63,563 bases of DNA from an uncultured Eubacteriales bacterium. GTDB lineage: Bacteria > Bacillota > Clostridia > Oscillospirales > Acutalibacteraceae. Position 1 is the stretch's first letter; every line of letters begins with the position of its first letter. The stretch covers positions 1 to 63,563 of the forward strand of contig CASFBL010000012.1 in NCBI GenBank assembly GCA_949292775.1, in the 5' to 3' direction. This document shows positions 5,424 to 25,683 of this stretch, piece after piece. The notes under the pieces are model-generated. The model was not told where the DNA came from and made no database searches. It saw only the letters and a program-made list of their open reading frames with translations. The position numbers and the translations under genes are program-made.

Positions 5424-5460
5424 TACCCCTTGCGGCGGTTGTCGCAAGGGGTTCTTTTTA
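5424..5460 (+). terminator. Rho-independent terminator of the alpha/beta hydrolase gene
   Basis: A 10-bp GC-rich stem (5425-5434 with 5443-5452) is followed by TCTTTTTA, 26 bases after the stop codon. Confidence 0.85.
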
Positions 5461-5496
5461 TGTGTATTTCCCGGGGAATAAACCCCCGCATTTCGA

Positions 5497-9833: not shown

Positions 9834-9866
9834 AGACTAACCTCGTTTCTTTACACAGGGACAAAA

Positions 9867-12221
9867 TCAGTCCTTGTATTCTTCCATAATGAAGGCTTCG
9901 AAAATGTCGCCCTCTTTCAAGTCGTTGAATTTCTCCAGACCGATGCCGCATTCATAGCCCTGTGCAACTTCCTTCACATCGTCCTTAAAGCGTTTGAGGG
10001 AGGAAATGCTGTCTTCTGCGATTACAATGCCGTCGCGCACCACGCGAATCTGTGCATTGCGGGTCACTTTGCCTTCCAACACATAGGAGCCGGCAATCAT
10101 ACCCGCAGAGGACAACTTGAACACATTGCGGACCTCGATACGGCCCAAAACCACCTCGCGGAACTTCGGCGCAAGCATGCCCTTGATAGCCGCTTCGATT
10201 TCTTCAATGCAGTCATAAATAATGCGGTACATACGCATATCAATGCCGTCACGCTCGGCAACTTCCGCCGCGACCGGGTCGGGTCGGACATTGAAGCCGA
10301 CGATAATTGCATTGGAAGCGTTTGCAAGCATAACATCAGACTCGCTGATTGCACCGACGCCGCCGTGGATGACCTTGACCTTAACTTCCTCGTTAGAAAG
10401 TTTTTCAAGGCTTTGACGAACCGCTTCCACGGAGCCCTGTACATCGGCTTTTACAATGATATTCAGTTCTTTCATTTCACCCTGGTTAATCGAAGCAAAC
10501 AGATTATCCAGCGTGACCTTGTGGAACTGGTTGAATTCTTCTTCCTTGGCCTCGCGCTTTCTCTGTTCGACCAGTTCACGCGCCAAACGCTCGTCGGAAA
10601 CGGCGTCAAAGGTATCGCCTGCCTGGGGCACATCGACAAGGCCTGTAATTTCCACCGGCACAGACGGGCCTGCGGAATCTACGCGCTGCCCGCGGTCGTT
10701 GGTCATAACACGCACACGACCGACCGACATGCCTGCAACAATCGTGTCGCCGGTTTTCAAAGTACCATTCTGCACAAGCAAGGTTGCCACAGGACCACGG
10801 CCTTTATCGAGCCGCGCTTCAATAACAATACCTTTACCTGCACGGTTGGGATTTGCTTTCAACTCTTTGAGTTCGGCAATCAGCAGGATGGATTCCAGCA
10901 GTTTGTCAATGTTCATATGTGTTTTCGCAGAAACCGGAACACAAATAACATCGCCGCCCCACTCTTCGGGAATCAGCTCATACTCTGTCAGCTGCTGCAT
11001 AATTTTATCCGGCGAAGAACCGGGTTTATCCATTTTATTGATGGCAACGATGATGCTGACATTTGCCGCTTTTGCGTGGTTAATCGCCTCCACGGTCTGC
11101 GGCATGATGCCGTCATCCGCCGCCACGACCAGCACCGCGATATCCGTTGCCTGCGCGCCGCGCGCACGCATGGAAGTAAACGCCGCGTGACCGGGGGTGT
11201 CTAAGAATGTAATTTTCTGCCCGTCCAAATCGACTCTATATGCGCCGATATGCTGGGTGATGCCGCCCGCTTCCGTTTCGGTCACCGCGGTATTGCGAAT
11301 TGCGTCCAGCAAAGAGGTCTTACCGTGGTCAACATGGCCCATGACAACGACAACCGGGTCGCGCTTGACCAAATCTTCTTCCGCGTCCTCCGTGTCATCG
11401 ATAATGCGTTCCTCAATGGTAACAACAACTTCTTTTTCGACCTTTGCGCCAAGCTCTGTTGCCACGATTTCCGCAGTATCATAATCGATGACTTCGTTAA
11501 CGGTCGCCATTTGACCTAACGAGAACAGCTTTTTGATGACTTCCGCCGCGGTCATTTTCAGCCGGGCGGCAAGCTCGCCGACGGTAATCTCATCCGGCAC
11601 GGTAATTTTGATTTGCTTTTTCGCACGCTCGGCAGCGATACGCGCCATACGCTCTTTTTCGGTTTCATGCTTACGGCTGCGCATGCCCTGCTTTCTGTAT
11701 TGCTGCGATTTCTGTTTGAGCTTCTGCTTGCGCACAACATTATCGGTATTGCGTTCATTTGCAGGCGCGATATTTTCATAACGCTCGTTGTATTTGTCAA
11801 GTTCGACATTCTGCGCACGCGTATCGATGTGGCGGATTTCGCCTTTGGTTCTCGACTGCATGGGCCGGTTGGGGTCTTTTTCCTTTTTGCGTTTTTCAGG
11901 TGCGCCGCCGGCCGGTTTCTGCGCCGCTTCGCCCGCAGGCGCTTTCGCCGCTTCTTTGGTCTCTGCCTTTTCCGCCGCAGCCTTTGCCTTCGCCTTGGGC
12001 GCTTTTTCGCCACCGGATTTCTGCATAGCAAAATAGCTGTCCAGACTTTCTACAGCGGTTTCCGCCGTTAAAACATCGAAAATGACATCCAGTTCTTTTT
12101 CCTCCAGCGCCGTCTGGGATTTCTTTTCGCCGTCAAAATACTTTCCGAGCAAATCGACCAGTTTTTTGCTCGGGACATTGAAATCCTTTGCGGCTTCGTG
12201 GAGTTTATATTTTTTCGTCAT
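9867..12221 (-). CDS. infB: Translation initiation factor IF-2
   Basis: A GTPase that recruits fMet-tRNA to the 30S subunit. The 784-residue product has an N-terminal IF2N segment ([15 protein letters not shown]), an Ala/Lys/Glu-rich low-complexity linker, a second IF2N-like segment, the G domain from about residue 294 ([21 protein letters not shown]) and the C-terminal fMet-tRNA-binding domains. The start is ATG 12221, with GGAGGG 9 bases upstream, 4 bases after the ylxQ stop. The longer frame beginning at 12263 lies inside ylxQ and lacks a ribosome binding site. Confidence 0.97.
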
Positions 12222-12225
12222 ACTA

Positions 12226-12540
12226 TCAGTCCCTCCAGATGAGTTCTGTAATCTTATCGGCAAAGCCGCGGTCGTTAACGGTCAGAACCGCCGTTTTTTT
12301 GGACCCCGTACTCCACCCGAGTTCGTCCATTGTAAAATCGGTTTGCAGCAGCTTGGCTTTGCCGCCATATTGCTCTACGGTACGCCTTATCTCTGCACAC
12401 AGCCGTTCAGACGCATCGCACGAGAGCAGACACAAACACGCCGAACCGTTTTGAACGGCCGTTTTGACCGCGTCGTGCCCTAAGCTGAGCTTTCCTGCGC
12501 GCCGGGCAAGCCCCAGCATGCCAAAAGCTTTATTCTCCAT
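12226..12540 (-). CDS. L7Ae-family RNA-binding protein, YlxQ-like
   Basis: A 104-residue protein of the L7Ae/L30e/S12e fold, a kink-turn binder found between ylxR and infB in many Firmicutes; its cellular role is poorly defined. It begins [20 protein letters not shown], with the family pattern GLA.RAGKL. The start is ATG 12540, overlapping the ylxR stop (ATGGAGAATAA). A longer frame upstream is only the other reading of ylxR. B. subtilis calls the locus ylxQ (rplGA). Confidence 0.88.
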
Positions 12541-12799
12541 TATGAAGCGACGCCTCCAGTTCGGCATAAACCGCCTCGGGAATCGCGCACGCGAACACCC
12601 GCTCCAGACGCTTTGCCTTTTTTGCTTTTGCAAGACAGCCGGCGTTCGGACAAATATAAGCCCCTCTGCCCGGTTTCTTACCTGTAATATCCAGACTGAT
12701 CTCGCCCTCGGGGGAACGCACAACGCGCACAAGCTCTTTTTTCGGCTTCTGCTCGCCGCAGCCTGTACAGGTGCGCAGAGGTATTTTTTTCTGCTTCAC
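12530..12799 (-). CDS. ylxR: YlxR/RnpM family RNA-binding protein (DUF448)
   Basis: An 89-residue nucleic-acid-binding protein with the signature RTCTGC, the GRGAY motif and C-terminal basic residues. Cys pairs (CTGC and C...C) are retained. B. subtilis homologues have been linked to RNase P modulation; function here is by family. The start is GTG 12799 with AAGGAG 8 bases upstream. It is the third gene of the rimP operon. Confidence 0.9.
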   Translation of the reverse strand: MKQKKIPLRTCTGCGEQKPKKELVRVVRSPEGEISLDITGKKPGRGAYICPNAGCLAKAKKAKRLERVFACAIPEAVYAELEASLHNGE

Positions 12800-12841
12800 G
12801 CCATCAGCTCCTTACCTGTTCGCTATGTTTGAGCGCGTATT

Positions 12842-13891
12842 TCAGCCCTCATAGAACCCGCTTTCGGGTTTGATATCGATTTTCCAGCCGGTCAGGCGCG
12901 CGGCAAGGCGGGCGTTTTGACCCTTATTGCCGATTGCGAGCGACAACTGGTTATCCGGCACAGTTACCTGGCAGGACTTTGCCTGTTCGTCAACAACTTC
13001 CACTTTCAGCACACGGGCGGGCGCCAATGCAGCTGCGATAAACTCTTCGGGCTTCTCGCTGTAAACCACAATGTCAATCTTTTCTCCGCCGAGTACTTCC
13101 ACAATCTTATTGACACGCGCGCCGCGCGGCCCGATGCATGCGCCGACCGCATCGACATCGGCATCTTTGCTGTGCACGGCAATTTTGGTTCTTGCACCGG
13201 CTTCGCGGGAAACGGCTTCAATCGTAACGGTACCGTCATAGATTTCCGGCACTTCTGTTTCGAACAGGCGTTTGACAAGACCGGGATGTGTGCGGGAAAT
13301 CATGGCTTTCGGCCCTTTTTCGGTATCGCGTACATCCACAATAAAGACTTTGATCAGCTCGCCCTCGGTGTATTCCTCGCCGGGCACCTGCTCGCCCTTC
13401 GGAAGAATCGCCTCCGCCTTGCCGATTTCCAGCGTAGCATTGCCGGAAACCGGGTCGATGCGCTCGACCTTTGCGGTGACAAGCTCCTGCTGTTTGGACT
13501 GGAACTCAACCATAATCTGACCGCGCTCTGCGTCACGGATGCCCTGACGGATAACATGTTTCGCCGTCTGCGCCGCAATTCTGCCGAAATCCTTGGTTTC
13601 TAAAGAGATGAGGATCTCGTCGCCCACTGCTGCATCCTTTTTATATTGTGCAGCGTCCGTCAAAGAGATTTCACAATCGGGGTCTTCCACGGTCTCTACC
13701 ACGGTTTTGTGCAGATAGACGCGCATTTCTTCTTTCTCCGGATGGATTTCGCAGGAAATAACATCTTTACCGTTATAGTCTTTTTTTACGGCAACCACAA
13801 TCGCCGCCTGGATTTTTTCATAAAGGTATTCCGCCGGAATGCCTTTTTCCTTTTCCAGTTCTCTGACTGCCTCAAAAAATTCCTTGTTCAT
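12842..13891 (-). CDS. nusA: Transcription termination/antitermination factor NusA
   Basis: Binds RNA polymerase and RNA and modulates pausing and termination. The 349-residue product contains the N-terminal polymerase-binding domain, an S1 domain, and two KH domains (GACIGPRGARV and IGNKGQNARLAARLTGWKID). It lacks the acidic repeats of proteobacterial NusA, as usual for Gram-positives. It starts 3 bases after the rimP stop. Confidence 0.97.
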   Translation of the reverse strand: MNKEFFEAVRELEKEKGIPAEYLYEKIQAAIVVAVKKDYNGKDVISCEIHPEKEEMRVYLHKTVVETVEDPDCEISLTDAAQYKKDAAVGDEILISLETKDFGRIAAQTAKHVIRQGIRDAERGQIMVEFQSKQQELVTAKVERIDPVSGNATLEIGKAEAILPKGEQVPGEEYTEGELIKVFIVDVRDTEKGPKAMISRTHPGLVKRLFETEVPEIYDGTVTIEAVSREAGARTKIAVHSKDADVDAVGACIGPRGARVNKIVEVLGGEKIDIVVYSEKPEEFIAAALAPARVLKVEVVDEQAKSCQVTVPDNQLSLAIGNKGQNARLAARLTGWKIDIKPESGFYEG

Positions 13892-13894
13892 TTT

Positions 13895-14374
13895 TTAAAA
13901 ACCTCCAAAATCATCGAGCTTAATCCACGATGTTTCTTTTTTATCAAAAGAAAGCCCAGAGCCGTCTGCGCAGGATATGGTAACCTGCCCGTTGTCATAA
14001 GCTTCCAAAGTGCCTTTATATTCCCGGCGGCCGTCTTTTGCACGGATAAACCGCACCATTACGGCTGCGCCGATGTTGGTCGTGAAATGAAAATCGCGCG
14101 TCAGTTCCCGCTCAATACCGGGAGACTGCACCTGCAAGCTGTAGCTTTGGTCGATTGGGTCCGCTTCGTCGAGCGGCTCGTCGAGCGCCTGGCTCATCGC
14201 CACACAATCCTCAATCCCGACGCTTCCGTCTTCCTTATCAATTATAATACGCAAATACCAGTCGGTTCCTTCCTTGAGGAAACGAACATCCCACAGCACA
14301 AGCCCGAGACGCTCTGCAATCGGTTCGGCAAGCTCCCAAACCACTGCAACTGTATTTTTCTTTCTTTCCGCCAT
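13895..14374 (-). CDS. rimP: Ribosome maturation factor RimP
   Basis: Needed for 30S assembly. The 159-residue product shows the RimP pattern ELAEPIAERLGL, RIIIDKEDGSVGIEDC and SPGIERELTRDFHF. The start is ATG 14374, because AGGAG lies 5 bases upstream. The longer frame from 14473 would overlap the promoter. It is the first gene of the operon that runs to ribF. Confidence 0.95.
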   Translation of the reverse strand: MAERKKNTVAVVWELAEPIAERLGLVLWDVRFLKEGTDWYLRIIIDKEDGSVGIEDCVAMSQALDEPLDEADPIDQSYSLQVQSPGIERELTRDFHFTTNIGAAVMVRFIRAKDGRREYKGTLEAYDNGQVTISCADGSGLSFDKKETSWIKLDDFGGF

Positions 14375-14444
14375 AAACACTCCTACAAAACGAAGAGAGC
14401 GGGTCGCCCCACTCTCAAACAATAACCTATATTCGTACGATAGC

Positions 14445-14473
14445 ATCATAGCACAGCCGTCGGCTTTTTGCAA
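14445..14473 (-). promoter_or_regulatory. Promoter of the rimP-nusA-infB-ribF operon
   Basis: Minus-strand TTGCAA (14468-14473) and TATGAT (14445-14450) are separated by 17 bases. The inferred transcript start leaves about 60 bases of leader before rimP. Confidence 0.75.
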
Positions 14474-14500
14474 GCTTTTTTTGAACGATAGCCGCCCGCT

Positions 14501-14689
14501 TTATAAATCGTCCGCATCCTGCACCGGATTTTCAGTATTGTCCGTCGGACTTCCGCGGTAACTGCCGAGGACATCCGCGTTGGTGGTATCGTTGTCAAAA
14601 CCGTTCCAGATATCGGCGATTTCATCGGTCACTTCGCTGATTTTTTCAATCGCTTTTTCAGAAGGTTTTTTCCCGTTTTTTCTTTTCAC
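14501..14689 (-). CDS. Small acidic protein with conserved-looking C-terminus
   Basis: A 62-residue protein beginning at GTG 14689, which has AAAGGAGG 8 bases upstream. The first 14 residues are basic (KRKNGKKPSEK). A helical stretch EVTDEIADIWNGFDNDT follows, then DVLGSYRGSP and the acidic end DADDL. A longer in-frame reading upstream lacks a ribosome binding site. From memory, similar short proteins ending in this type of DVLGSYTG.P...DADDL tail recur in Clostridia without an assigned function. It has no membrane segment or signal peptide. Confidence 0.65.
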   Translation of the reverse strand: MKRKNGKKPSEKAIEKISEVTDEIADIWNGFDNDTTNADVLGSYRGSPTDNTENPVQDADDL

Positions 14690-14786
14690 GGCACGCGCCT
14701 CCTTTCTGTAAGGTTCGTTTCTATTGTTCCAGTCTTTGCTTGGGAAATTCATTCTGAAAAATTCTTTTGAAAAATAAGATTTTTGG

Positions 14787-14815
14787 TTGACTTTTACAAG
14801 CCGGATTGCTATAAT
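14787..14815 (+). promoter_or_regulatory. Promoter of the secreted TG-tail protein
   Basis: TTGACT (14787-14792) and TATAAT (14810-14815), 17 bases apart, about 60 bases before the start codon at 14874. Confidence 0.8.
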
Positions 14816-14873
14816 ACGAATGTATATTTGACGACATACGCCTATATTGTCAAAGGAAAGGAACATATTTGCT

Positions 14874-15569
14874 ATGAAAAAGTTTTTTGCTGCCGTAGTT
14901 GCACTTGTTATGCTGTTTGCGCTGTGCGTTCCCGCTTTTGCCGGAACCGCAATCGATGCGCTGACAGACGCCAATGCAAAAGAGATCGCCAGTGCGGTCG
15001 CTCAGCAGTTGGATGAAAATACCACGGCAAACTTCGCTGCACAAAATTATCGTGACCAATTCGTTACCGCTGCGGTAGCAGGCATTACTGCCAAGAATTT
15101 TGATACGGAAGAAAAACGCGTTGCCGCTGTGGACGCTGCAATTGCTGCCTTGCAGGCAGATTACCCGGACAGACAGCTGACCGAGGAAAACGCAAATGCT
15201 TTCAAAGCAGAGCTTCTTCCGAAACTTGAAAAAGCATATGCTGATTCTCAACTCGGTGTTTCCACCTTTGACCCGAGCGAAGTGATTGATAATGTTGCCG
15301 ACGGTTTTTCAGACGGCGACTTGGACGCATTGTTTGACACCATGCGCAACACCATTAACGACTTGAGCGACAGACTGACCGGTGTGTTCAGCGGCATTGC
15401 CGGTGACAGCGGCAGCTCTGATTCCGGCGACAGCGCAGACGACGGCTCTACTGATCAGCCGGAATTCGGCGGCAGCGATGCTACCGGCGACACCGCAATC
15501 TTTGCAGTGGTTGGCGTGGCAGCGGTTGCCGGTGCGGCACTCATCCTGACCAGAAAGAAAGCTAAATAA
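14874..15569 (+). CDS. Secreted surface protein with sortase-like C-terminal tail
   Basis: The 231-residue product has a classical signal peptide (MKKFFAAVVALVMLFALC, cleavage near AFA-GT), a helical extracellular domain with no recognised family, a Ser/Gly/Asp-rich linker (about residues 180-200), and a C-terminal sorting-like module: ATGD, a hydrophobic helix (about 207-226) and RKKAK. The residues aligned with LPxTG would be SDATG, so only the TG is kept. The start is ATG 14874 behind AAAGGAAAGG; an earlier in-frame start is not needed. The same architecture occurs in the protein at 27758-28333, which neighbours a sortase gene, so this could be another client. It is monocistronic. Confidence 0.7.
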   Translation: MKKFFAAVVALVMLFALCVPAFAGTAIDALTDANAKEIASAVAQQLDENTTANFAAQNYRDQFVTAAVAGITAKNFDTEEKRVAAVDAAIAALQADYPDRQLTEENANAFKAELLPKLEKAYADSQLGVSTFDPSEVIDNVADGFSDGDLDALFDTMRNTINDLSDRLTGVFSGIAGDSGSSDSGDSADDGSTDQPEFGGSDATGDTAIFAVVGVAAVAGAALILTRKKAK

Positions 15570-15587
15570 ACCATATAGGCGTTTATT

Positions 15588-15621
15588 AAGCCTTGTGCCA
15601 AAAGCACAAGGCTTATTTTTT
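15588..15621 (+). terminator. Rho-independent terminator of the secreted TG-tail gene
   Basis: An 11-bp perfect stem (15588-15598 with 15604-15614) is followed by ATTTTTTG. Confidence 0.88.
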
Positions 15622-15867
15622 GCCCGGCTATTTTGTTGCAAGTGGCTTACCTTCTTTTTTACTCTGCACAAGCAAAATATAGGCACAGTAAAATTCCTGC
15701 TGCAGCTTATTAAGGCTGTGGCACTTTGGCAGTATCAATCAACGGGAAATAATAACCCAATACGCCTTATTATACCCATGTAAAGTTCCATTCTCCTCTG
15801 CAGTCTTCGCTTCACTGTTTATATAGAATGATTCGAAATGCCTTTTGTGTCGTACTGTAGGCATAGC
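15622..15867. other. Intergenic stretch with no recognisable feature
   Basis: About 245 bases lie between the terminator at 15588-15621 and the hairpin at 15868-15906. I see no ORF with a ribosome binding site, no clear promoter and no structured RNA signature. Confidence 0.5.
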
Positions 15868-15906
15868 AAACCCCGAAAAGCAAATCGCTTTCCGGGGTTT
15901 TGATTT
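15868..15906. terminator. Hairpin downstream of mgtC
   Basis: The arms 15868-15881 and 15888-15901 form a nearly perfect stem around AAACCCCG. It lies 17 bases beyond the mgtC stop. The T-rich tail is better on the plus strand, so it may act in both directions. Confidence 0.65.
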
Positions 15907-15918
15907 TATTCGGAAGAT

Positions 15919-16641
15919 TTAATCCACATAAACATCCACAACATTTTCGTCGTTTTGTAAAGTGGAAACGATTAAGCTGGTTGCATCATCGGTTTTGGGG
16001 AAGATGATAGCCTTTATAGTCGCGGTATCTTTCCTCTTACGCAGTTTAGAATCGCCCTCATAAAGAATTTCCATGGAATGCACCACGGTTCCGGTGCGCT
16101 TGATGAGCTTGGAAATCTTCGGCACCTGCTCTGCCAAATCTTTCACTTCGACATATAACGCTTTTCCCGCTTTTCCCTTTACAATCACTTTTTTCAGCGA
16201 ATTCAGCGTCAGATAAATCACCAATGTCGCAACGACCGCGCCGGAAATGAATCCCGCGCCGACTGCAATGCCTATACACGAAACCGCCCAAAGGCTTGCT
16301 GCCGTCGTAAGTCCCTTGACCGAAAACCCTTCGCGTAAAATCGTCCCGGCTCCGAGGAAACCGATGCCGCTGACGACCTGACCGCTCATACGGGTAATGT
16401 CCACATTCATCATGCCCTCATATTTTTCGCCGACATAGACGCTGGTCAGCATAACCAATGCGGAGCCGATTGCCACCAATATATGGGTACGGAATCCGGC
16501 CGGGCGATGGGAATGCTCTCGTTCAAAACCGATAATACCGCTTAACAGTGCAGCTAAGCCCAGCTTCCATATAGAATCCAGAATAAACCGCACCTCTGTA
16601 ATATCCCACAGCCACATGGCGGTTTCTTTTAGCCATTCCAT
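15919..16641 (-). CDS. MgtC/SapB family membrane protein
   Basis: A 240-residue protein with the MgtC signature GIIGFEREHSHRPAGFRTHILVA in its first half (split here as GIIGFEREH, RPAGFRTH), several membrane helices within about residues 1-140, and a soluble C-terminal ACT-like domain (about 150-240). The family modulates P-type Mg2+ transport or F-ATPase activity in enterobacteria and is widespread with less clear roles elsewhere. The start is ATG 16641 with AAGGA upstream; the TTG at 16647 is an alternative. It follows the large P-type-ATPase-like gene by 12 bases and is surely cotranscribed with it. Confidence 0.9.
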   Translation of the reverse strand: MEWLKETAMWLWDITEVRFILDSIWKLGLAALLSGIIGFEREHSHRPAGFRTHILVAIGSALVMLTSVYVGEKYEGMMNVDITRMSGQVVSGIGFLGAGTILREGFSVKGLTTAASLWAVSCIGIAVGAGFISGAVVATLVIYLTLNSLKKVIVKGKAGKALYVEVKDLAEQVPKISKLIKRTGTVVHSMEILYEGDSKLRKRKDTATIKAIIFPKTDDATSLIVSTLQNDENVVDVYVD

Positions 16642-16653
16642 AGTCAACCATCC

Positions 16654-19620
16654 TTAAACCTTTTTGATTTTAGGTAAAATCATCATAATCGCAGCCCATA
16701 CCAATTCAAAGACAACGACTTCAAACGCTCCCGCCTGTGAAAGCCCGGAGAAAAAGCTCAGCACGGTAAGCAACAGGACATTGAGCCCAACGCCGATATA
16801 AGAAAGAATCTCGGTGAGGCGGACTTTTTCATCCAGCACAAATGCGCCCAAAAATGCACGCAATCCGCTTTCGGTTCTGCCGTCGTGCACGATATTACAC
16901 GGTTCATCCTTTGGCGGCTGCTCTAAAAGGTCACGGAACAGATCGCCCGCCACGGGATTGATAATCTTAACAAGATTATGCGGCAGGTGAAAGATCTGCT
17001 CAACGAGCCCTTCTGTGATATTGGGGTCGGAGGTGCGCACCAATATGCTGATGCCGTATTTTTCCAAACGGCAAATTACCTTTGCCGTTTGCGCATTTGA
17101 TGCATAAGAGACCACAAACAACGCTGCTGTTTTGCCCTCTACGGCAAGATACAGCACTTCGCAGCCGTCTTTTTTAAACATTCTTTCTTCTTCACGGGTG
17201 GGCGCGTCAACATTGTGCTTCACAAGCAGGTCTCGGCTGCCCACAAGCACACGCTGGTTATAAATCCAGCCGGAACACCCGAGGCGGTCCTCATAAGCCA
17301 AAGACTCAACCTGCGGCAAAATCTCACGCCGGGACTGAATCACGCCGTCAAACACAGAAGAAAGCGTGCCACCGGACTGAATAACCATTGCCGCCGTATA
17401 CAAAAGCGCTTCATCCACGCGCATTTTATGGTAAAGCTTCATGCCGCACAAACGGCAATCTGAAACCTGAAACAGGTCTGCTGCATCAATGACGATTGCA
17501 TTGGCGCTCAATGTGTCAAACGCCGCCTCGTAGCCGGAGATCATCGCCCCCTGCGTGTGCAGACATTTGTTTGTGCTGCGCAAGCCCACCGCAGAGCTAC
17601 ACAGCGCCGCCGAGGGAATTCCCGCCAACACAACAGCTGACATTGCAGAAATACCGGTGTAGACTGATTTGGTAACAAATCCGGTTACAGCGCCGACGAT
17701 GCCCGCAGCAATCAGAACGGCCGGAACCGCTTTTGCGTAAATTCCGTTTGCGGGGTCGCTCTGTTTGGTGATTTCAACAAAGTGTGAAGGCAGCGTTACC
17801 GGCTTGCTGTAACGGATATCCGGGTCGCCGAGCAAAAGCCCGCGACCGATTTCAAAGGCAACTTCCTCGTCTTCGATTTTCCCAATGCTGTGAAATGCAT
17901 TATGCCGTTTTACAAGCAAATGGAAATTTTCAATATCGCCCTTGAGCTTCATCGAACAGCCGGCATAGTACAGCGCAAAGCACAAAAGCCCGACAGCACT
18001 GTAAAGCGGCACTTCGGCTGCCTGCTGCGGGAAAGCAAAAGAGATGCCGGTTTGCAATATCGCAAACAGCCACGCACAAAGCAGCGCAGTCTGAGCGCCT
18101 GCATAATGTGTGAAAATACCGACAACAGCCGTTTTCAGCTCTTTAAGCCCCATCAGCCCTGCCGCCAATAAAAAGACCAGATTGACGGCCGAATACACAC
18201 CGGCGTTTCCGCCGACAAAATCAAAGCTGCCCGTCAGGCGCACCATCACAGCAGAAACAACAGCCGCCGCAGTTAAAATAGAAAGCAGAACCGCGCGCAC
18301 AGTAAAACTGCGCTTTTCGGCTTGAAAAATATCATAAACACCGGGTGCGTCTTTCGGTCCGAAGAACTCGCGCATAACACGCACAGGCTGCGCCTGCTTT
18401 TGCTTTGCTCTTCTGCGTTTGCTGCCATGCTCCTGGAGCTGTTCTTCTGTTTCGTCCTCTGAAAATGCCTCTTCGGGTTCAGATTCTTCCGTTGTTTGAG
18501 CAACCTGAGACAAATCTAAACGCACTTTGGTTTTTTCTTCAGGCGGCAATACGGTTTCTTCATCTGCCGAATTCTGTTCAGCCTCCGGCAGAGGTTCTTC
18601 GTTCAGCCCCGGGAACAAGCGGAATTTGCGCGCCTTTTCACGGCGGCGCTCAAACAAATCCAGCTCCGCTTCCTGCTCGTCGATTTGCTCCACACGCGGT
18701 TCTTCTCCGAAGCCTTCAAACATCACTTGGTCATCCGGCTGCATAAGCTCGGTTTCGTCCACCGGGTTCTCAAATGCATGACTTTTCAGGGAGCCCTCTT
18801 GCACCTGCACTTGGGCGCGCTCCTCTTCTTTGAGAATATCTTCCGGCATAATCAGCTTCGGAATAGCCTGTAAGCCGTCTTCTCCGGTGTTTTCATCCGT
18901 CTCTTTGCGAACGATAACGCCGGGTTTTTCTATGGTCTTCGGCGGGAGCTGTTCTAAAAGCTTTTTATGCTCCATGGTTTTTTCCAGCTTTTGCTCCGGC
19001 CGGTTCAAAAAGCGTTCTCTGTAACGGTCACGCTCCATTGCAGACTTTTTCGGTGCCTCCGCGCCGGTTCGAATCACTTTTTGCCCAATATGGTGCTCAA
19101 TATCCGGGTTATGTACAGCACGGGGCTGAACCTCGTTAAACACGCGGGTCTTTTCTAAGGAAATCTGACCCGGCAAAGGCTTTTGCGGTTCGGGTTCTTC
19201 TTCGGCGGGCTGCTCTTCTTCCTGCTGTGCAGTAACGCCGGACAGCAAAGGTTCATCCGGCAGCAGCACCGGTTCAGACATTTGCTCTGTGTTTTCTTCT
19301 TCCGCCTTTTTGTCTGCATTTTCTTCCGATTCTAAAGTGCGCAGCCGTTCAAGCACCTTAGCGGCGTGTTTGACAGATTCAGAAAGCACCGGCGTTTCCG
19401 CTTCCGGCACAGACGCTTTTTCCGAATCGTTACGGGGCGTCGAAAGCTCTGACGCAGCTTCAAGTGCCTCGGAACCTTTTATTTCTTCTTTTTCTTCAGA
19501 AAGCAGTGCATCCACATCTTCCAAAGACCATAGCTTCATCGGCGAGCCGCCTTCCATTTCCTTGACATCGGCAAGGATTTTTTCCACCGACAGGCCGGAA
19601 AAAATATCTTTTTGCTCCAT
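16654..19620 (-). CDS. Large membrane protein with a degenerate P-type ATPase core
   Basis: The 988-residue product has a long acidic, Glu/Pro/Gln-rich, probably disordered N-terminal region (about 1-415), then membrane helices from about residue 440. Its C-terminal half follows the P1B-type ATPase order. GIPSAAL stands where CPCAL is expected. GAMISGYEAAFDTL resembles the segment before the phosphorylation site. VIDAADLF (Asp712) stands in place of DKTGT. VLVGSRDLL matches the nucleotide domain. TSDPN (863-867) replaces TGDN, and HDGRTESGL (912-920) replaces GDGxNDAPA. Two helices end the protein. Catalysis by the normal cycle therefore looks impossible. The start is ATG 19620 behind GAGGTG. 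It lies between rlmB (9-base gap) and mgtC (12 bases). Confidence 0.72.
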   Translation of the reverse strand: MEQKDIFSGLSVEKILADVKEMEGGSPMKLWSLEDVDALLSEEKEEIKGSEALEAASELSTPRNDSEKASVPEAETPVLSESVKHAAKVLERLRTLESEENADKKAEEENTEQMSEPVLLPDEPLLSGVTAQQEEEQPAEEEPEPQKPLPGQISLEKTRVFNEVQPRAVHNPDIEHHIGQKVIRTGAEAPKKSAMERDRYRERFLNRPEQKLEKTMEHKKLLEQLPPKTIEKPGVIVRKETDENTGEDGLQAIPKLIMPEDILKEEERAQVQVQEGSLKSHAFENPVDETELMQPDDQVMFEGFGEEPRVEQIDEQEAELDLFERRREKARKFRLFPGLNEEPLPEAEQNSADEETVLPPEEKTKVRLDLSQVAQTTEESEPEEAFSEDETEEQLQEHGSKRRRAKQKQAQPVRVMREFFGPKDAPGVYDIFQAEKRSFTVRAVLLSILTAAAVVSAVMVRLTGSFDFVGGNAGVYSAVNLVFLLAAGLMGLKELKTAVVGIFTHYAGAQTALLCAWLFAILQTGISFAFPQQAAEVPLYSAVGLLCFALYYAGCSMKLKGDIENFHLLVKRHNAFHSIGKIEDEEVAFEIGRGLLLGDPDIRYSKPVTLPSHFVEITKQSDPANGIYAKAVPAVLIAAGIVGAVTGFVTKSVYTGISAMSAVVLAGIPSAALCSSAVGLRSTNKCLHTQGAMISGYEAAFDTLSANAIVIDAADLFQVSDCRLCGMKLYHKMRVDEALLYTAAMVIQSGGTLSSVFDGVIQSRREILPQVESLAYEDRLGCSGWIYNQRVLVGSRDLLVKHNVDAPTREEERMFKKDGCEVLYLAVEGKTAALFVVSYASNAQTAKVICRLEKYGISILVRTSDPNITEGLVEQIFHLPHNLVKIINPVAGDLFRDLLEQPPKDEPCNIVHDGRTESGLRAFLGAFVLDEKVRLTEILSYIGVGLNVLLLTVLSFFSGLSQAGAFEVVVFELVWAAIMMILPKIKKV

Positions 19621-19629
19621 GGTCACACC

Positions 19630-20388
19630 TCAATTCTGAAAATTCCGTTTGGAAGCGACCTCATACATCAAAATACCCGCCGCAACCGATGCGTTTAAGG
19701 AGTTGATTTTCCCTCTCATCGGCAAAGAAACGATGAAGTCGCACTTTTCACGGACCAATCTGCCAATGCCTTTCCCTTCTGAGCCAACCACCAACGCAAC
19801 CGCGCCGGAAAAATCGGTTTGCTTATAATCGGCACCGTCCATATCCGCGCCATATACCCAGCACCCGTTTGCTTTCAATTCTTCTAAAGCCGCAGGCAGA
19901 TTGGCAACCCGCGCCACGCGCATATATTCTAAAGCGCCGGCAGAAGTCTTTGCCACGGTGTAATTTAAAGACGCACTGCGGCGTTTCGGGATAATCACGC
20001 CGTGCACGCCCGCCGCTTCCGCAGTACGGATGACCGCGCCAAGGTTGTGCGGGTCTTCCAGCTCATCGCAAACAACCACAAACGGCGGTTCCCCTTTTTC
20101 GCGTGCAAAATCAAGAATATCCTGCACGGTAGAATACGAATGTGCCGCAACAAATGCCGCCACACCCTGATGATTTGCGCCGTCACACATGGCATCAAGC
20201 TTTTTGCGGTCCACCTCTTTGACGACACCGCCTTTTTCACGACAGATTGCCGCAAGACGCGTAAGCGCCGGATTCTTTTCTCCACGCAGCAGAAAAACCG
20301 TATCTACTTCTCTGCCGGATTGCAGCACTTCCGCCACTGCGTTTCGGCCAATAATCAAATCCTCTTTTCTCTGCTCGCCCTTGTTCAT
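19630..20388 (-). CDS. rlmB: 23S rRNA (guanosine-2'-O-)-methyltransferase RlmB-type (SpoU/TrmH family)
   Basis: A SAM-dependent RNA 2'-O-ribose methyltransferase with a trefoil-knot fold. The 252-residue product has the N-terminal substrate-binding domain (IIGRNAVAEVL) and the three SpoU motifs: DPHNLGAVIRTAEAAG, VVGSEGKGI and LPMRGKINSLNASVA. The target (G2251 in E. coli) is assumed from the family. The start ATG follows GGGAGAG. It is the first gene of a unit with the pseudo-ATPase and mgtC. Confidence 0.92.
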   Translation of the reverse strand: MNKGEQRKEDLIIGRNAVAEVLQSGREVDTVFLLRGEKNPALTRLAAICREKGGVVKEVDRKKLDAMCDGANHQGVAAFVAAHSYSTVQDILDFAREKGEPPFVVVCDELEDPHNLGAVIRTAEAAGVHGVIIPKRRSASLNYTVAKTSAGALEYMRVARVANLPAALEELKANGCWVYGADMDGADYKQTDFSGAVALVVGSEGKGIGRLVREKCDFIVSLPMRGKINSLNASVAAGILMYEVASKRNFQN

Positions 20389-20435
20389 ATACTCTCCCTG
20401 CTATGTAAAAACGATATAGGTATAGTTATTATAGA

Positions 20436-20464
20436 ATTATACCATATATTGTGTGCTTGTACAA
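20436..20464 (-). promoter_or_regulatory. Promoter of the rlmB-mgtC unit
   Basis: Minus-strand TTGTAC (20459-20464) and TATAAT (20436-20441) with 17-base spacing. It is divergent from the Fur-family gene promoter. Confidence 0.72.
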
Positions 20465-20510
20465 CATCTTTTTTCTTTTGTCAATATTTGGCGTTTTGTC
20501 TTTCGGCTGC

Positions 20511-20539
20511 TTGACAGATGAAGTGATTCGATGTATACT
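20511..20539 (+). promoter_or_regulatory. Promoter of the Fur-family regulator/exporter operon
   Basis: TTGACA (20511-20516) and TATACT (20534-20539) with 17-base spacing. The predicted transcript start, near 20546, abuts the operator at 20548-20562. Confidence 0.82.
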
Positions 20540-20547
20540 TATGAATC

Positions 20548-20562
20548 TGAAAATGATTTTCA
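20548..20562 (+). promoter_or_regulatory. Fur-box-like operator (7-1-7 palindrome)
   Basis: TGAAAATGATTTTCA is a perfect 7-1-7 inverted repeat of the Fur/PerR/Zur box type. It sits right at the inferred transcript start and 20 bases before the regulator's start codon. It predicts autorepression of the regulator and the exporter. Confidence 0.75.
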
Positions 20563-20582
20563 ATTTCAAAAGAGGAATGGAT

Positions 20583-20993
20583 ATGGCCTATAAAACCCGG
20601 CAAAGCGCATTGATTTTGCAGGTGCTTGAAAAAAATCGCGACCGGCACCTGACCGCAGAGGAGATTTACCTGCTTTTGAAAGAAAGCGGCAAGCCCGTTG
20701 GGCAAACAACCGTGTACCGGCATTTGGAAAAGCTCTGTGCAGATGCAACTGTGCGCAAATATGCAGGCGGTGAAGGTGACAGTGCCTGTTTTCAGCTTGC
20801 AGACACGCAAAACTGTAAAATGCACTACCACTTAAAATGCACCGCCTGCGGCCGGCTGTTCCACACAGAATGCGCTTATTTGAACACGCTTTCCGACCAC
20901 ATCAAAAACGAGCACGGCTTTTTGGTGGACGGTTCCAAAACCGTTTTATACGGTTTGTGCAAAACCTGCGCAAAGGAGAAACAGAACCCATGA
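20583..20993 (+). CDS. Fur-family metal-responsive repressor
   Basis: The 136-residue product has the N-terminal winged helix (QSALILQVLEKNRDRHLTAEEIY, quoted in parts as HLTAEEIY and TVYRHLEKL) and the C-terminal dimerisation/metal domain with His-rich HYHLKC, then CTACG and CKTCA, the two CxxC pairs of the structural zinc site. Which metal it senses (Fe, Zn, Mn) or whether it is a peroxide sensor cannot be decided from sequence alone. The start is ATG 20583 with AGAGGA 6 bases upstream. It overlaps the next gene by ATGA, so regulator and exporter are cotranscribed. Confidence 0.92.
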   Translation: MAYKTRQSALILQVLEKNRDRHLTAEEIYLLLKESGKPVGQTTVYRHLEKLCADATVRKYAGGEGDSACFQLADTQNCKMHYHLKCTACGRLFHTECAYLNTLSDHIKNEHGFLVDGSKTVLYGLCKTCAKEKQNP

Positions 20994-21883
20994 TTTTACT
21001 GCACACACATACTTTCAGCCTTTCGTGGGCGTCTGCGCTCGACCTTTTGCTCGAGGCCGTTTTGGACGCACTCAAAACGCTGCCGTTTTTATTTTTTGCT
21101 TTTTTAATTATCGAATTATTGGAGCATCACGCCGGTGAAAAACTCGGCCGCTTTTTTGCGCGTTCCGGCAAGGCAGGCCCCGCGGTCGGCGCACTGCTCG
21201 GCTGTGTGCCGCAATGTGGTTTTTCCGTTATGAGTGCAAACCTTTATGCCGGCGGGGTCATCACGCTGGGCACACTCATTTCGGTCTTTCTTTCCACTTC
21301 GGACGAGGCGGTTATTTTGCTGGTGGCAGAACCGGGGCGGCGCTTGGAGATTTTTCGCCTTTTGCTGACCAAAGTTGCTTTGGCGATTGTCGCCGGTTAT
21401 GTGATTGACATTATCAGCCGTCGCCGTTCCTGGAAAACCCCCGGCAAGATTTCTGACCTTTGCGACCACGAGCACTGCGGCTGTCACGACCACAAAGGCG
21501 TGTTTGTTCCGACCTTGATTCACACCGCCAAGGTTTTCGGATTTTTGCTTCTGTTCACCATACTGCTGAATTTTGCCGTTGCATTTTTAGGGGATGAACG
21601 CCTGTCGCATATTTTATTGACCGACTCTGTCTTTCAACCGTTTCTCGCGGCTTTAGTCGGGTTTATTCCAAACTGCGCAGCCTCCGTTCTGCTGACACAG
21701 TTGTATTTAGAGGGCGCCATCAGTTTCGGCTCGGTCATTGCCGGATTGTGCACAAGCGCGGGAGCAGGGCTGCTCGTGCTGTTCCGCGAGAACCGGCATG
21801 TGCGCGACAATCTGAAAATCATAGCTTTATTATATGTTTGCGCCGTCATTCCCGGTGTGCTTTTACAGCTTTTCGGCGTTTAA
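20990..21883 (+). CDS. Predicted heavy-metal exporter of the ArsP_2/putative manganese transporter type
   Basis: A 297-residue polytopic membrane protein with about eight to ten helices. It has two sequence-related halves: GCVPQCGFSV...LYAGGVITLGTLI near residue 65 and GFIPNCAASV...LYLEGAISFGSVI near residue 225. Between them is a cytoplasmic-looking His/Cys loop, CDHEHCGCHDHK (about residues 157-168), a likely metal-binding site. Family knowledge (PF11449-like) suggests export of a divalent metal or arsenical; the substrate is not known here. The ATG overlaps the regulator's stop, and AAAGGAG lies 11 bases upstream. Confidence 0.75.
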   Translation: MILLHTHTFSLSWASALDLLLEAVLDALKTLPFLFFAFLIIELLEHHAGEKLGRFFARSGKAGPAVGALLGCVPQCGFSVMSANLYAGGVITLGTLISVFLSTSDEAVILLVAEPGRRLEIFRLLLTKVALAIVAGYVIDIISRRRSWKTPGKISDLCDHEHCGCHDHKGVFVPTLIHTAKVFGFLLLFTILLNFAVAFLGDERLSHILLTDSVFQPFLAALVGFIPNCAASVLLTQLYLEGAISFGSVIAGLCTSAGAGLLVLFRENRHVRDNLKIIALLYVCAVIPGVLLQLFGV

Positions 21884-21901
21884 AAGTAAAAGGAAAAATA
21901 A

Positions 21902-21939
21902 AAAAGGAGCAGGTTTTTACCTGCTCCTTTTATTTTTTT
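21902..21939. terminator. Bidirectional terminator between the exporter gene and murA
   Basis: A 12-bp perfect stem (21903-21914 with 21919-21930) with a T4 loop is flanked by A and T runs on both sides, so it serves both convergent genes. Confidence 0.88.
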
Positions 21940-21942
21940 GTA

Positions 21943-23238
21943 TCAGCCGGCGGTCATTTGCACTTTTTCCTCATCATCGGGGAAAGAGCGGCGTTCAATG
22001 ATTGCGCCGAGAGAACGGAACTTGTCCACAACATTCTCATAACCGCGTTCTATGTGCTGGATTTCTTCCAGTTCGGAAACCCCGTTTGCCGCCATAGCCG
22101 CAATCAGCATTGCCGCACCGGCACGCAAATCATCTGCACGAATGGGCGCGCCTTTCAGCGCTTCGACGCCCTCAATCACAGCAGTTTTGCCATTGACATG
22201 GATGGTCGCACCCATTCTGGTAAGCTGTTCGGTATAACGGAAGCGATTGTCCCAAACACTTTCCGACACAAAGCTCGTGCCCTCAGCGAGGCACAGAAGC
22301 GTGGAGAACTGGGGCTGCATATCGGTCGGGAAGCCGGGATGCGGCATGGTTTTAATGTTGCAATGCCCGGGGCGTTTGTCCATAATTACACGCACCGCCT
22401 CGTCATCTTCAATGACCGTAGCACCCGCTTCAATAAGCTTTGCCGTAATCGATTCCAAGTGTTTCGGAATTACATTTTTAACAAGCACATTGCCGCGCGT
22501 TGCAGCGGCGGCTACCATATAGGTGCCCGCTTCAATCTGGTCGGGAATGATAGAATATTCACAGCCGTGAAGCTTTTCAACGCCACGGATTTTAATGACA
22601 TCGGTGCCCGCACCGCGAACATCCGCGCCCATTGTATTCAAAAAGTTTGCCAAGTCAACAATGTGCGGTTCCTTGGCGGCATTTTCAATCACCGTAAGCC
22701 CCCGCGCTTTCACAGCGGCAAGCATAACATTGATTGTGGCGCCGACAGAAACGACATCGAGATACACAGAATTGCCGAGCAAATGCTCCGCCTGCACATT
22801 GACCATGGCGTTTTCTTCCATCGTCACTTCTGCGCCGAGCGCTTCAAAGCCCTTAATGTGCTGGTCAATCGGACGAAGCCCGAGATAGCACCCGCCGGGC
22901 ATAGCGACCTGCGCTTTGTGGAAACGGCCGATCAGCGCACCGATAAGATAATATGACGCGCGCAGCTGCTTGGTCAAATCATGCTCCACAACATGAGAAC
23001 GCACAAATCTTGTATCAATTTCAAGGGTGCTTGGATTGATATATTTAATCCCCGCGCCCATATTTTTCAAAATTTTTACCATGGCCGTAACATCGCTGAT
23101 GTTCGGTATGTTTTCTATTCTGCAAACATCCTCCGCCAAAATGGTAGCGGGGAGAATGGCAACTACCGCATTTTTTGCACCGCTGACCGAAACCTCGCCG
23201 GTCAGGCGTTGACCGCCGGTAATAATAAACTTATCCAA
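21943..23238 (-). CDS. murA: UDP-N-acetylglucosamine 1-carboxyvinyltransferase
   Basis: The first committed step of peptidoglycan synthesis: transfer of enolpyruvate to UDP-GlcNAc in the cytoplasm. The 431-residue product has the KNAVVAILPA substrate motif and the catalytic loop MPGGCYLGLRPID, with the Cys that fosfomycin alkylates. A TTG start at 23238 has AGGGAG upstream at suitable distance and gives the family-typical beginning LDKFIITGGQRL. The longer frame from 23319 is unlikely. A TATAAT at 23351-23356 (minus) may be its -10 box, although the -35 is weak. Confidence 0.95.
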   Translation of the reverse strand: MDKFIITGGQRLTGEVSVSGAKNAVVAILPATILAEDVCRIENIPNISDVTAMVKILKNMGAGIKYINPSTLEIDTRFVRSHVVEHDLTKQLRASYYLIGALIGRFHKAQVAMPGGCYLGLRPIDQHIKGFEALGAEVTMEENAMVNVQAEHLLGNSVYLDVVSVGATINVMLAAVKARGLTVIENAAKEPHIVDLANFLNTMGADVRGAGTDVIKIRGVEKLHGCEYSIIPDQIEAGTYMVAAAATRGNVLVKNVIPKHLESITAKLIEAGATVIEDDEAVRVIMDKRPGHCNIKTMPHPGFPTDMQPQFSTLLCLAEGTSFVSESVWDNRFRYTEQLTRMGATIHVNGKTAVIEGVEALKGAPIRADDLRAGAAMLIAAMAANGVSELEEIQHIERGYENVVDKFRSLGAIIERRSFPDDEEKVQMTAG

Positions 23239-23487
23239 AGACGGTTCACTCCCTGTTTCCTGTTTTCCGATACCACACAACAATAAACAGTCCAAAAGGA
23301 CACGAAAAAAAGAACGCAAAACAGTTTACGCTCGTAACAATCACTTTAGTATTATACCACCGCAAAAGAGAAATTAAAAGTCTTTTTTCATAGAATTTTC
23401 GCAATGGTTTTTGTCCATTTTTTATGCATGTTATGGCAAAGAACGGAAACGCTACTATACGGATTGCACAAACAAAAAGCAGAAAAA

Positions 23488-23525
23488 ACAAAAAAACGGC
23501 GCGCTTTCAGGCGAAAAGCGCGCCT
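23488..23525 (-). terminator. Terminator of fba
   Basis: A 10-bp stem (23498-23507 with 23515-23524) is followed on the minus strand by GTTTTTTTG, 15 bases past the fba stop. Confidence 0.85.
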
Positions 23526-23539
23526 CTTCTTTAATGCAA

Positions 23540-24475
23540 TTATGCTTTGCCTTCGCAGCCAAGCACCGTTTCAATTTTGTGAGAAACCACACCTTCAATG
23601 GCATCTCTTGCGGGGGTGAGATACTGTCTGGGGTCAAAGTGAGTCGGGTTCTGTGCGAAGTGCTTACGGATAGCAGCCGTCATAGCAATGCGGATGTCAG
23701 AGTCCACATTGATTTTGCAAACCGCCATGGAAGCCGCTTTGCGCAGCATGTCCTCGGGAATACCGATAGCATCGGGCATTTCACCGCCGAACTCGTTGAT
23801 GGTCTTGACATCTTCCTGGTTGACGGAGCTTGCGCCGTGCAGAACGATCGGGAAGCCGGGCAGCTTTTCTTCAACTTCTTTCAAAATGTCGAAACGAAGC
23901 TGCGGTTTCTGACCGGGTTTGAATTTATAAGCGCCGTGGCTGGTACCAATCGCGATTGCCAAAGAATCCACGCCGGTTCTGGTCACGAAATCATAAACCT
24001 GCTCCGGTTTGGTAAAGCTGGCATCTTCTGCGCTGACATTGACATCGTCTTCAATGCCGGCAAGCTGGCCAAGCTCGCCTTCCACGACAACGCCGTGTGC
24101 GTGTGCATAGTCAACGACCTTTTTGGTCAGAGCAACATTTTCTTCATAGGGCAGGTGGCTGCCGTCGATCATAACAGAGGTAAAGCCGCCGTCGATGCAG
24201 GCTTTGCAGGTTTCAAAATCAGGACCATGGTCCAAATGCAGAGCAATCGGAAGGCCGGTTTCTTCTGCTGCCGCTTTCACCATAGCGACAAGGTAACCGT
24301 GCGAAGCATATTTTCTCGCGCCGGCAGAAACCTGCAGGATCACCGGGGCGTTGTGCTTTTTCGCAGCACGGGTGATGCCCTGAATGATTTCCATGTTGTT
24401 CACATTGAAAGCGCCGATGGCATAGCCGCCTTCATATGCTTTTTTGAACATTTCGGTTGTAGTTACTAAAGGCAT
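23540..24475 (-). CDS. fba: Class II fructose-bisphosphate aldolase
   Basis: A zinc-dependent aldolase of glycolysis and gluconeogenesis. The 311-residue product shows ALHLDHGPDFETC (zinc ligand His and catalytic Asp), the GELGQLAG active-site stretch, IAIGTSHGAYKF and VLHGASSV. The start is ATG 24475 with AAGGAGTG upstream. It is monocistronic with a perfect promoter. Confidence 0.96.
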   Translation of the reverse strand: MPLVTTTEMFKKAYEGGYAIGAFNVNNMEIIQGITRAAKKHNAPVILQVSAGARKYASHGYLVAMVKAAAEETGLPIALHLDHGPDFETCKACIDGGFTSVMIDGSHLPYEENVALTKKVVDYAHAHGVVVEGELGQLAGIEDDVNVSAEDASFTKPEQVYDFVTRTGVDSLAIAIGTSHGAYKFKPGQKPQLRFDILKEVEEKLPGFPIVLHGASSVNQEDVKTINEFGGEMPDAIGIPEDMLRKAASMAVCKINVDSDIRIAMTAAIRKHFAQNPTHFDPRQYLTPARDAIEGVVSHKIETVLGCEGKA

Positions 24476-24547
24476 ATTTTTCACTCCTTGCATAAATTGC
24501 AAAATCATACATAATTCATCGCGGCAATATCTGCCCGATTACTTCTT

Positions 24548-24576
24548 ATTATAGCGTATCGTTAACTTATTGTCAA
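24548..24576 (-). promoter_or_regulatory. Consensus promoter of fba
   Basis: Minus-strand TTGACA (24571-24576) and TATAAT (24548-24553) with exactly 17 bases between: a full sigma-A consensus, as expected for a highly expressed glycolytic gene. Confidence 0.9.
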
Positions 24577-24588
24577 ACCGGAACACTT

Positions 24589-25683
24589 TTGAAAACACCG
24601 AAATATACTGCCTTTGGGGTGAAAGATTTGGATACTTTTTTCTGTACAGGTTCGGTTTCGGCATTTTTCCGTGATTTCCCGGAAGCAAAAAACTATCGGA
24701 AATGCTTTTTACAAGGCCGTTACACCGCTGTGAAAGCCGAGGTGCTGTGCGGTGTGCTGCAAAGAATACGGCAGGCGGATTTACAGATCGTTCGTCTGCT
24801 GCGCGACGGTCAAACCGTTCAGCCGGCCGGCATTCTTTTGCCCGCTCAAAAGGTCATGCTGCTCGACAGTGATTATTTTGCCGGAATTTTTGACAAATAC
24901 CCTTGTGATGAAAAATTTTTCGCCGATACAATTTTACAAACACCGCCGACACAAGACGACGCTGAAACGCTCGCCCAAAGTGACGCGCTGGTGTCGGAAG
25001 CGCAGCAGCGACGGCAAAGCTTTCAGCAAGCAGCCGCGGCGCTGTATGCGGAAAACCGCCAGGCGCTTGCTTCATGCATGAACAAAGGCGATCTGCTGCG
25101 ATTTCTGCTTGGATTTATGCAAAAGGAAAACGGACACCTTTTATATAAAACACATAGCCGCGCCGCCGTTCTTCACAGAACCGTCAGCTCAGTTACCGGG
25201 TGGGGCATCCAGACCTTTTACAAACCCTTTGCCACGCCGGGCATGCGCACAATCGTTTTAAAAGATAATATCGGCGCGGTTTCAGAAACACTTTTAAACG
25301 GCCTTGTTACCGTCTGTTTGCAAAACGATTTGGACATACAGCTTTTTCACTGTACCATCACAGGCGCGCCGGAGCACTGTGTGATTCCCGCACTTTCTGT
25401 GGGGTTCTTCACCGAAAATCTTTTACACCCATTTCCGTTGCGCGCGAAGGCAGCCCTTTCCGCCAGCCGGTTTGTTCGCTTGCCTGATTTTGCCGAAGTC
25501 CTGCCGGAGGTCCGCTTCAACGCAGCGGCAGCAGACGAGATGTTGGACGAAGCTGTTTTTTCTCAGCTGGAGGCCGACGAAGCCTATGCGGTGCAAAGCC
25601 GCATCTTGCAAAACTATATAAATGGTGAAAAACTGCAATCAAAACAGGAACAAATTTACAATCAGCTTGTAAAAGCAATATAG
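24589..25683 (+). CDS. Uncharacterised protein, possibly a degenerate P-loop NTPase
   Basis: A 364-residue cytoplasmic protein without signal peptide or membrane segments. The second half contains RTIVLKDNIGAVSETLL (about residues 220-236), where a Walker A loop would sit in a P-loop protein, but no GxxxxGKS/T is present. It is followed by DLDIQLFHC and HCVIPALSVGF. This order resembles, from memory, the two-half P-loop ATPases annotated as PRK06851 in Clostridia and Bacilli. The match is tentative and the loop looks dead. The first codon is TTG at 24589; another TTG at 24628, behind GGGGTGA, is an alternative start. It is monocistronic and divergent from fba. Confidence 0.55.
   Translation: MKTPKYTAFGVKDLDTFFCTGSVSAFFRDFPEAKNYRKCFLQGRYTAVKAEVLCGVLQRIRQADLQIVRLLRDGQTVQPAGILLPAQKVMLLDSDYFAGIFDKYPCDEKFFADTILQTPPTQDDAETLAQSDALVSEAQQRRQSFQQAAAALYAENRQALASCMNKGDLLRFLLGFMQKENGHLLYKTHSRAAVLHRTVSSVTGWGIQTFYKPFATPGMRTIVLKDNIGAVSETLLNGLVTVCLQNDLDIQLFHCTITGAPEHCVIPALSVGFFTENLLHPFPLRAKAALSASRFVRLPDFAEVLPEVRFNAAAADEMLDEAVFSQLEADEAYAVQSRILQNYINGEKLQSKQEQIYNQLVKAI

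Follow-up and report, generated by a model that had tools for sequence, protein, structure and literature searches.

A P1B-type ATPase homologue without pump motifs, encoded directly behind rlmB throughout an order of gut bacteria

The window analysed here is a 63,563-nt stretch of contig CASFBL010000012.1 (assembly GCA_949292775.1) from an uncultured Eubacteriales bacterium. At positions 16654–19620 it contains an open reading frame of 988 amino acids, which an earlier note on this DNA had reported without stating the strand; the frame is present and lies on the minus strand, with its ATG at 19620 and a further open start codon, GTG, at 19626. The encoded protein is almost certainly a homologue of the P1B (CopA-type) ATPases that is without catalysis. 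It is homologous to these pumps over its membrane, P and N parts, its catalytic motifs are lost, it is under purifying selection in the one pair of genes compared, it is found in nearly all genomes of its order, and its gene is paired with rlmB. The order is one that we take to be Oscillospirales, following the earlier note.

The resemblance to P1B pumps pointed out in the earlier note is above chance. The NCBIfam CopA profile matches residues 616–870 (E-value = 1e-10, 40.5 bits, far under the curated cut-off of 1316), and LpCopA (PDB 3rfu) matches the 988-residue protein with an E-value of 2.4e-12 (phmmer). A profile built from 29 family members and aligned by hhalign with the genome's own CopA gives a probability of 99.4 and an E-value of 1.9e-21 over 520 columns, spanning the first helices, the P and N domains and the region as far as M5. 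No Pfam family matches the protein over its cut-off, the best (E-value = 0.081) being an unrelated DUF. Two AlphaFold models, made with only the window, L003 and L004 sequences as input, have pLDDT values of 46.9 and 43.8. For both, the 50 best Foldseek rows are all P-type ATPases, mostly P1B, with TM-scores by query of 0.36 or less; the Foldseek search also uses amino-acid letters, and its matches lend weak support. The genome's real CopA (locus L002, contig C13) has, judged by its sequence, two heavy-metal-binding-like domains, one at each terminus.

The motifs were inspected in 110 family members (137 sequences before those with identical last 200 residues were removed) rather than in the copies of all 372 matching genomes. 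The controls were 31 real P1B loci, representing 30 distinct genes as the genome's own CopA is entered twice (L002, L103); a placeholder region of 100 bases (L096) was left out. Control frames were selected by DKTGT, so this motif is present in 31/31 by construction. The window protein shows the altered motifs described in the earlier note: DAADL at the DKTGT place (aa positions 712–716, nt 17473–17487), TSDP at the TGDN place (aa 863–866, nt 17023–17034) and HDGRTESGL (aa 912–920, nt 16861–16887). The last had been equated with GDGxNDAPA, which is plausible by spacing, but profile alignments give another mapping and the segment is a possible remnant of uncertain position.

These losses are family-wide. 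DKTGT is found in none of the 110 members, nor is GDGxND, which all 31 controls have. In the DKTGT columns, Gly715 is present once and Lys713 and Thr716 never. Asp712, which the earlier note had as kept, is indeed kept in the window protein but in the family Asp stands at this column in 56 of 110 members only. With the acceptor in about half of the family, residual phosphorylation cannot be its common function. The Gly of the TGD column is absent from all members (10 members have the string TGD at some point within their last 600 residues, and TGD is present in 31/31 controls), while Asp865, the former Asp of TGD, is kept in 109. In M4, the segment GIPSA (aa 667–671, nt 17608–17622) stands at the place of the CPC motif of P1B pumps, with the proline kept and the metal-binding cysteines absent. 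Cys is present at the two family columns in 2 and 4 members and Pro in 88, as against 31/31 each in controls. When the whole of the last 600 residues is counted, 12 members contain a TGE, unplaced in the alignment; all controls have TGE. In the N domain, the His column of the HP motif (31/31 in controls) is occupied in most members by Gly (60) or Ser (27), and the P1B Glu column (31/31) is chiefly hydrophobic. Loss of ATP-driven metal transport is predicted from the motifs.

The P1B-like remainder of the protein (aa 406–988, nt 16657–18405), with its membrane, P and N regions, has eight hydrophobic segments in the order MA, MB, M1–M6. The topology had been described as that of a P1B ATPase; this holds for the eight segments, but the A domain has largely disappeared, since the stretch from M2 to the M4 proline measures 110–140 residues (median 128, 108 members) compared with 193–194 in the 31 controls. 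The A domain is approximately 65 residues shorter than in these loci, and no A domain with TGE is found. Other distances are retained: median spacings are 43 residues from P669 to D712 in family and controls alike, and from D712 to D865 they are 153 and 152, respectively. From D865 to M5 there are 81 residues, about 33 below a hand count on the genome's own CopA, and by hand count these ~33 P-domain residues before M5 are missing whichever mapping of GDGxNDAPA is adopted. The family is therefore like the CopA pumps (LpCopA, PDB 3rfu and 4bbj) in helix order, P/N fold and the spacing from the M4 Pro to the Asp and TxD. Unlike them it is without DKTGT, GDGxND, the CPC cysteines and the ~33 residues, has a truncated A domain and has gained an acidic tail. 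The fold, the helix positions and the retention of Asp865 would fit a P-type pump that is still active by an unorthodox catalysis; however, the acceptor column is other than Asp in 54/110 members, the Lys and Gly of DKTGT and the whole of GDGxND are gone, and the A domain is truncated, so that such a pump is highly improbable.

In place of the pump motifs, the family displays conservation of its own. Gly781 and Gly794 are present in 110/110 members and stand at columns where the N domains of P1B pumps have invariant glycines, which we take to belong to the nucleotide site. A consensus D/E-L-F-P starts at position 715, with Phe717 in 98/110 members; Tyr839 is found in 99/110 where the controls have Asp in 31/31, and Asn867 in 87/110. 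Comparison of the window gene with its counterpart in L003 (Candidatus Fimenecus excrementavium, class Clostridia) gives a dN/dS of 0.10 (Nei-Gojobori, 581 codons, dS 1.14), a value from a single pair. Motif loss, new conserved residues and this low dN/dS together indicate that the pump motifs have been lost for good and that a new surface appears to be under selection; by its sequence the protein has the marks of a pseudoenzyme.

A decaying relic or an assembly artefact would account for lost motifs as well, and the earlier note had named a frameshift, with an intact DKTGT in relatives, as the outcome that would overturn it. Two of the listed matches have one in-frame TGA each. One is L176 (contig C38 of genome G171, ~4125–6557, taxonomic family f23), where the ATPase-like gene is split by the stop codon, whether through sequencing error, recoding or decay; the other is the match in G697. 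The other order-genome matches among those listed show no internal stop, none of the 110 relatives has DKTGT, new residues are conserved family-wide, and dN/dS is 0.10 in the tested pair. Given also the matches throughout the order, the pseudogene or frameshift explanation was rejected, and we regard it as barely conceivable.

The distribution of the family was determined by several searches. With residues 408–988 as query, matches were found in 139/150 genomes of the same taxonomic family and 181/197 genomes of the order, some real P1B pumps being included in both counts. The family profile, for which 3–4 candidates were scored per genome in the order and class searches, matched 372/394 order genomes at an E-value of 1e-38 or better (weakest 1.1e-40), and 307/315 among those of high quality. 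There is one match per order genome, except in G211, G229 and G709. Ten of the 22 order genomes without a match were searched again at lenient settings, which brought up weaker matches only (104 bits or less). In the class search of 291 genomes, 12 genomes of the same order gave full-length matches of 325–747 bits; none of the 279 other genomes had a match as strong, the best reaching 127 bits over the P/N part only. By whole-protein score, the 110 members have at least 208 bits and the 31 real P1B proteins at most 173.

The gene immediately upstream of the ATPase-like gene, on the same strand and 9 bases away, is rlmB (19630–20388), encoding the 23S rRNA (guanosine-2251 2′-O) methyltransferase; its product scores 251.2 bits against TIGR00186 (cut-off 160.15) and is thus an RlmB. 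The arrangement was followed in 82 loci, a non-random choice from the listed matches that covers 22 of the order's 26 family codes. At two of these (L159, L167) the available DNA stops short of where rlmB would lie, and in all of the 80 informative loci rlmB is directly upstream on the same strand (76 by script; L143, L145, L150 and L154 were re-read by eye, the frame start having been set too early). The spacing has a median of 24 nt in the 76 loci measured and is within 50 nt in 62. When the neighbours in 40 loci were compared, rlmB was the sole frequent one (36/40), the next clusters reaching 6/40.

RlmB was found in 184/197 order genomes, and 11 of the 13 without it are also without the ATPase-like gene; this joint absence is given little weight because draft assemblies make it easy. 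RlmB without the ATPase-like gene was seen in G153 and G175, both at a contig end. In G175 the apparent start of the acidic tail is visible there, and in G153 the contig-end status comes from the coordinates. The ATPase-like gene might have replaced Rae1/YacP, a usual gene behind rlmB in Bacillota; PF05991 was found in 17/59 order genomes and is not in the window's genome.

On the other side of the ATPase-like gene lies mgtC (15919–16641, minus strand; Pfam MgtC, E-value = 1.6e-39), whose ATG at 16641 is 12 bases downstream of the ATPase-like stop codon, as the earlier note said. In Salmonella, mgtC is cotranscribed with mgtB, which encodes an active Mg2+ pump from a different P-type class. 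The window resembles this system in that a gene with a P-type fold adjoins mgtC, and differs from it in that MgtB works as a pump and in that the neighbourhood is local: mgtC is next downstream in only 3/82 loci (the window, L003 and L004), as against 80/80 for rlmB. The earlier note had suggested a module with MgtC and a search of relatives for the same neighbour; that module was rejected as the conserved context. Its further proposal, a metal or nucleotide sensor acting with MgtC, draws on the co-oriented mgtC of the window, on mgtC being next in L003 and L004 too, and on the invariance of Gly781 and Gly794. Against it are the rarity of the mgtC neighbour, the replacement of the P1B Glu and His columns (31/31 in controls) by chiefly hydrophobic residues and by Gly/Ser, and M4 cysteines in 2 and 4 of 110 members. 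A sensor of this kind is distinctly improbable.

The explanation that we favour, tentatively and at slightly under an even chance, is that a former CopA-type pump may have become a non-transporting membrane receptor or scaffold linked to RlmB. On this view, a P1B homologue has lost its phosphorylation, dephosphorylation and metal-binding motifs and been retained for another purpose. Its helices would anchor it in the membrane; its P/N-domain fold would bind a ligand or a protein via the new surface formed by D/E-L-F-P, Tyr839, TxDxNIT, Gly781 and Gly794; and the acidic tail may add lineage-specific docking. The best candidate partner would be RlmB, or the 50S subunit or 23S rRNA on which RlmB acts, since its gene and rlmB are a constant pair and no other conserved neighbour was found. 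Co-transcription with rlmB, the scaffold role and the RlmB or ribosome partner are what we infer from this pairing.

Nearly as likely as a partnership with RlmB is that the protein has a function unrelated to it, such as a cell-envelope role or a partnership with another transporter, and stays in place via the rlmB promoter and translational coupling. The short spacing or overlap with rlmB (median 24 nt) would be expected on this account, RlmB occurs outside the order without this protein, and in another order of the class (f43, below) an intact CopA, which is not known to be connected with rRNA methylation, is encoded at the same place. Dependence on a promoter alone, however, should break sometimes over 22 taxonomic families, and the pairing is unbroken in the 80 informative loci though the genes on either side vary.

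Several observations weigh against the receptor or scaffold linked to RlmB. RlmB is present in 57/57 genomes outside the order, which are without this protein, so that RlmB can generally do without it. In G238 and G259 the ATPase-like gene is present and RlmB was not found. The joint absence of both genes in draft genomes is largely expected from linkage alone, and a gene pairing can be historical, as rlmB precedes an intact CopA in f43. Both structure models are of low confidence, and the tail is unconserved, ranging from 1 to 902 residues with a single motif block in 24/103 tails.

That tail had been described as a disordered, acidic stretch of 400 residues. It is acidic (aa 1–405, nt 18406–19620; 20% Glu, net charge −48) and may be disordered. 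Among family members the length before the first helix has a median of 294 residues, and the tail is net negative in 99/110. The motif block, IE-R/K-PG … T-x-DL-x-x-x-PTI, is shared by so few tails that the tail appears to be an addition and not part of the core. At the N-terminus (first 80 residues), an FSxDDILxE-like motif is found by strict pattern in 28/110 members. It occurs in one of 1413 other open reading frames, and that one is the start of a family member. At the DNA level the pattern has three places in the window's own genome, two inside other proteins (L224, L225) and the third at L223. The 548-residue protein of L090 (taxonomic family f10) is almost tail-less, yet rlmB and the ATPase-like gene are together there, as they are in L155 of the same taxonomic family.

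Loci outside the order bear on the origin of the pair. Thirty RlmB loci were inspected, one of which proved to be the window's own; three have no downstream frame on the same strand, and the longest such frame is commonly sigH-like (by eye), often 500–900 nt further on. No P1B match lies downstream of rlmB within 1.5-kb flanks in the 29 loci outside the order. In one locus outside the order (L227, genome G401), a P-type-ATPase-like frame (3–1337, plus strand; 55 bits to CopA) lies upstream of rlmB.

In f43, all four genomes examined (L256–L259) have an intact copA right behind rlmB; two of the four were chosen because a P1B match had been seen just behind rlmB, and other f43 genomes lie outside the sample. 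The two genes overlap by 1 nt or are separated by up to 12 nt, and the CopA proteins have 736–741 residues with CPC, TGE, DKTGT and GDGxND. These proteins share with the dead family the P1B fold and the place directly behind rlmB, and differ from it in having the catalytic motifs. Genes resembling homoserine dehydrogenase and aspartokinase (hom- and lysC-like, by eye) lie upstream in the f43 loci and are also near in two f2 loci of the order (L143, L145). The f43 arrangement and these shared neighbours suggest that copA was captured behind rlmB and that catalysis was then lost in the order.

Trees do not settle the ancestor of the dead family, because several placements are not rejected. A tree built on the core region unites the family in a single clade (100/100) whose branch is long (2.37); in the best tree this clade adjoins a P1B group other than f43 (88/87). 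Joining it to the rlmB-linked CopA of f43 is not rejected (p-AU 0.27), and neither is joining it to either of two further P1B groups (p-AU 0.26 and 0.27); row P1B_L127 of this tree is the same gene as the f43 row L259. A tree of RlmB sequences places f43 beside f36 (92/81) and apart from the order, so that the f43 pair may be independent of the order's pair; a clade of f43 and the order is not rejected there (p-AU 0.148). Two of the 24 order sequences in that tree (L090 and L155, both f10) fall elsewhere, their nearest grouping having support of 90/89 and not being starred.

Signals for transcription in the window were sought by sequence scans. A promoter-like site lies upstream of rlmB on the minus strand (20436–20463; 10/12 matches, with TG before the second hexamer), found by the consensus scan alone, which gave 11 sites as against 5.0 in shuffled sequences. 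Weaker minus-strand sites (9/12) are found inside the ATPase-like gene, e.g. at 16709–16682, and by these mgtC may have its own transcription start. No terminator-like site was detected by the scan on the minus strand at the junction of rlmB with the ATPase-like gene or at that of the latter with mgtC, and nothing in Rfam exceeded its gathering score within 9000–25000. A convergent gene on the plus strand (14847–15569) has a 240-residue product that looks secreted and carries a hydrophobic anchor at its C-terminus; the gene has a close relative in L003 and ends before a strong terminator-like hairpin (15587–15615). Divergent from rlmB, a Fur-like regulator and a permease-like protein (names by eye) are encoded at 20451–21883 on the plus strand.

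No paper on such a family was found, by titles, among the top-ranked results of literature searches, and a review that surveys unanswered questions about P-type ATPases (PMC10654040) has, for the terms looked up, no passage on inactive members. The nearest precedent is human TMEM94, for which one report describes a P-type-like fold with no ATPase activity detected and no TGES motif (PMC12134183). Its status is disputed, as another paper calls it an ER (endoplasmic reticulum) Mg2+ ATPase (PMC13322241). As so described, TMEM94 is like the present family in combining P-type architecture with no detected pump cycle; unlike it, TMEM94 is human and has ten helices and a folded A-like domain, and the two are likened by description, not by sequence.

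A fuller claim would be that this is the first conserved bacterial family of pseudo-P-type ATPases, its fold repurposed as a membrane receptor throughout the order, by which RlmB, and with it 23S rRNA maturation or the ribosome, would be tethered to the membrane; taken as a whole, we consider this unlikely. Similarity-based annotation could mislabel the protein as a copper exporter. As an order-wide marker gene it has a fixed neighbour, rlmB, and its function is therefore directly testable. P-type ATPases are the textbook pumps. Here the P1B fold is kept throughout an order of gut bacteria (372/394 genomes), usually in single copy, with the pump motifs replaced by new invariant residues; in this order, the pump fold seems to have taken on a new task.

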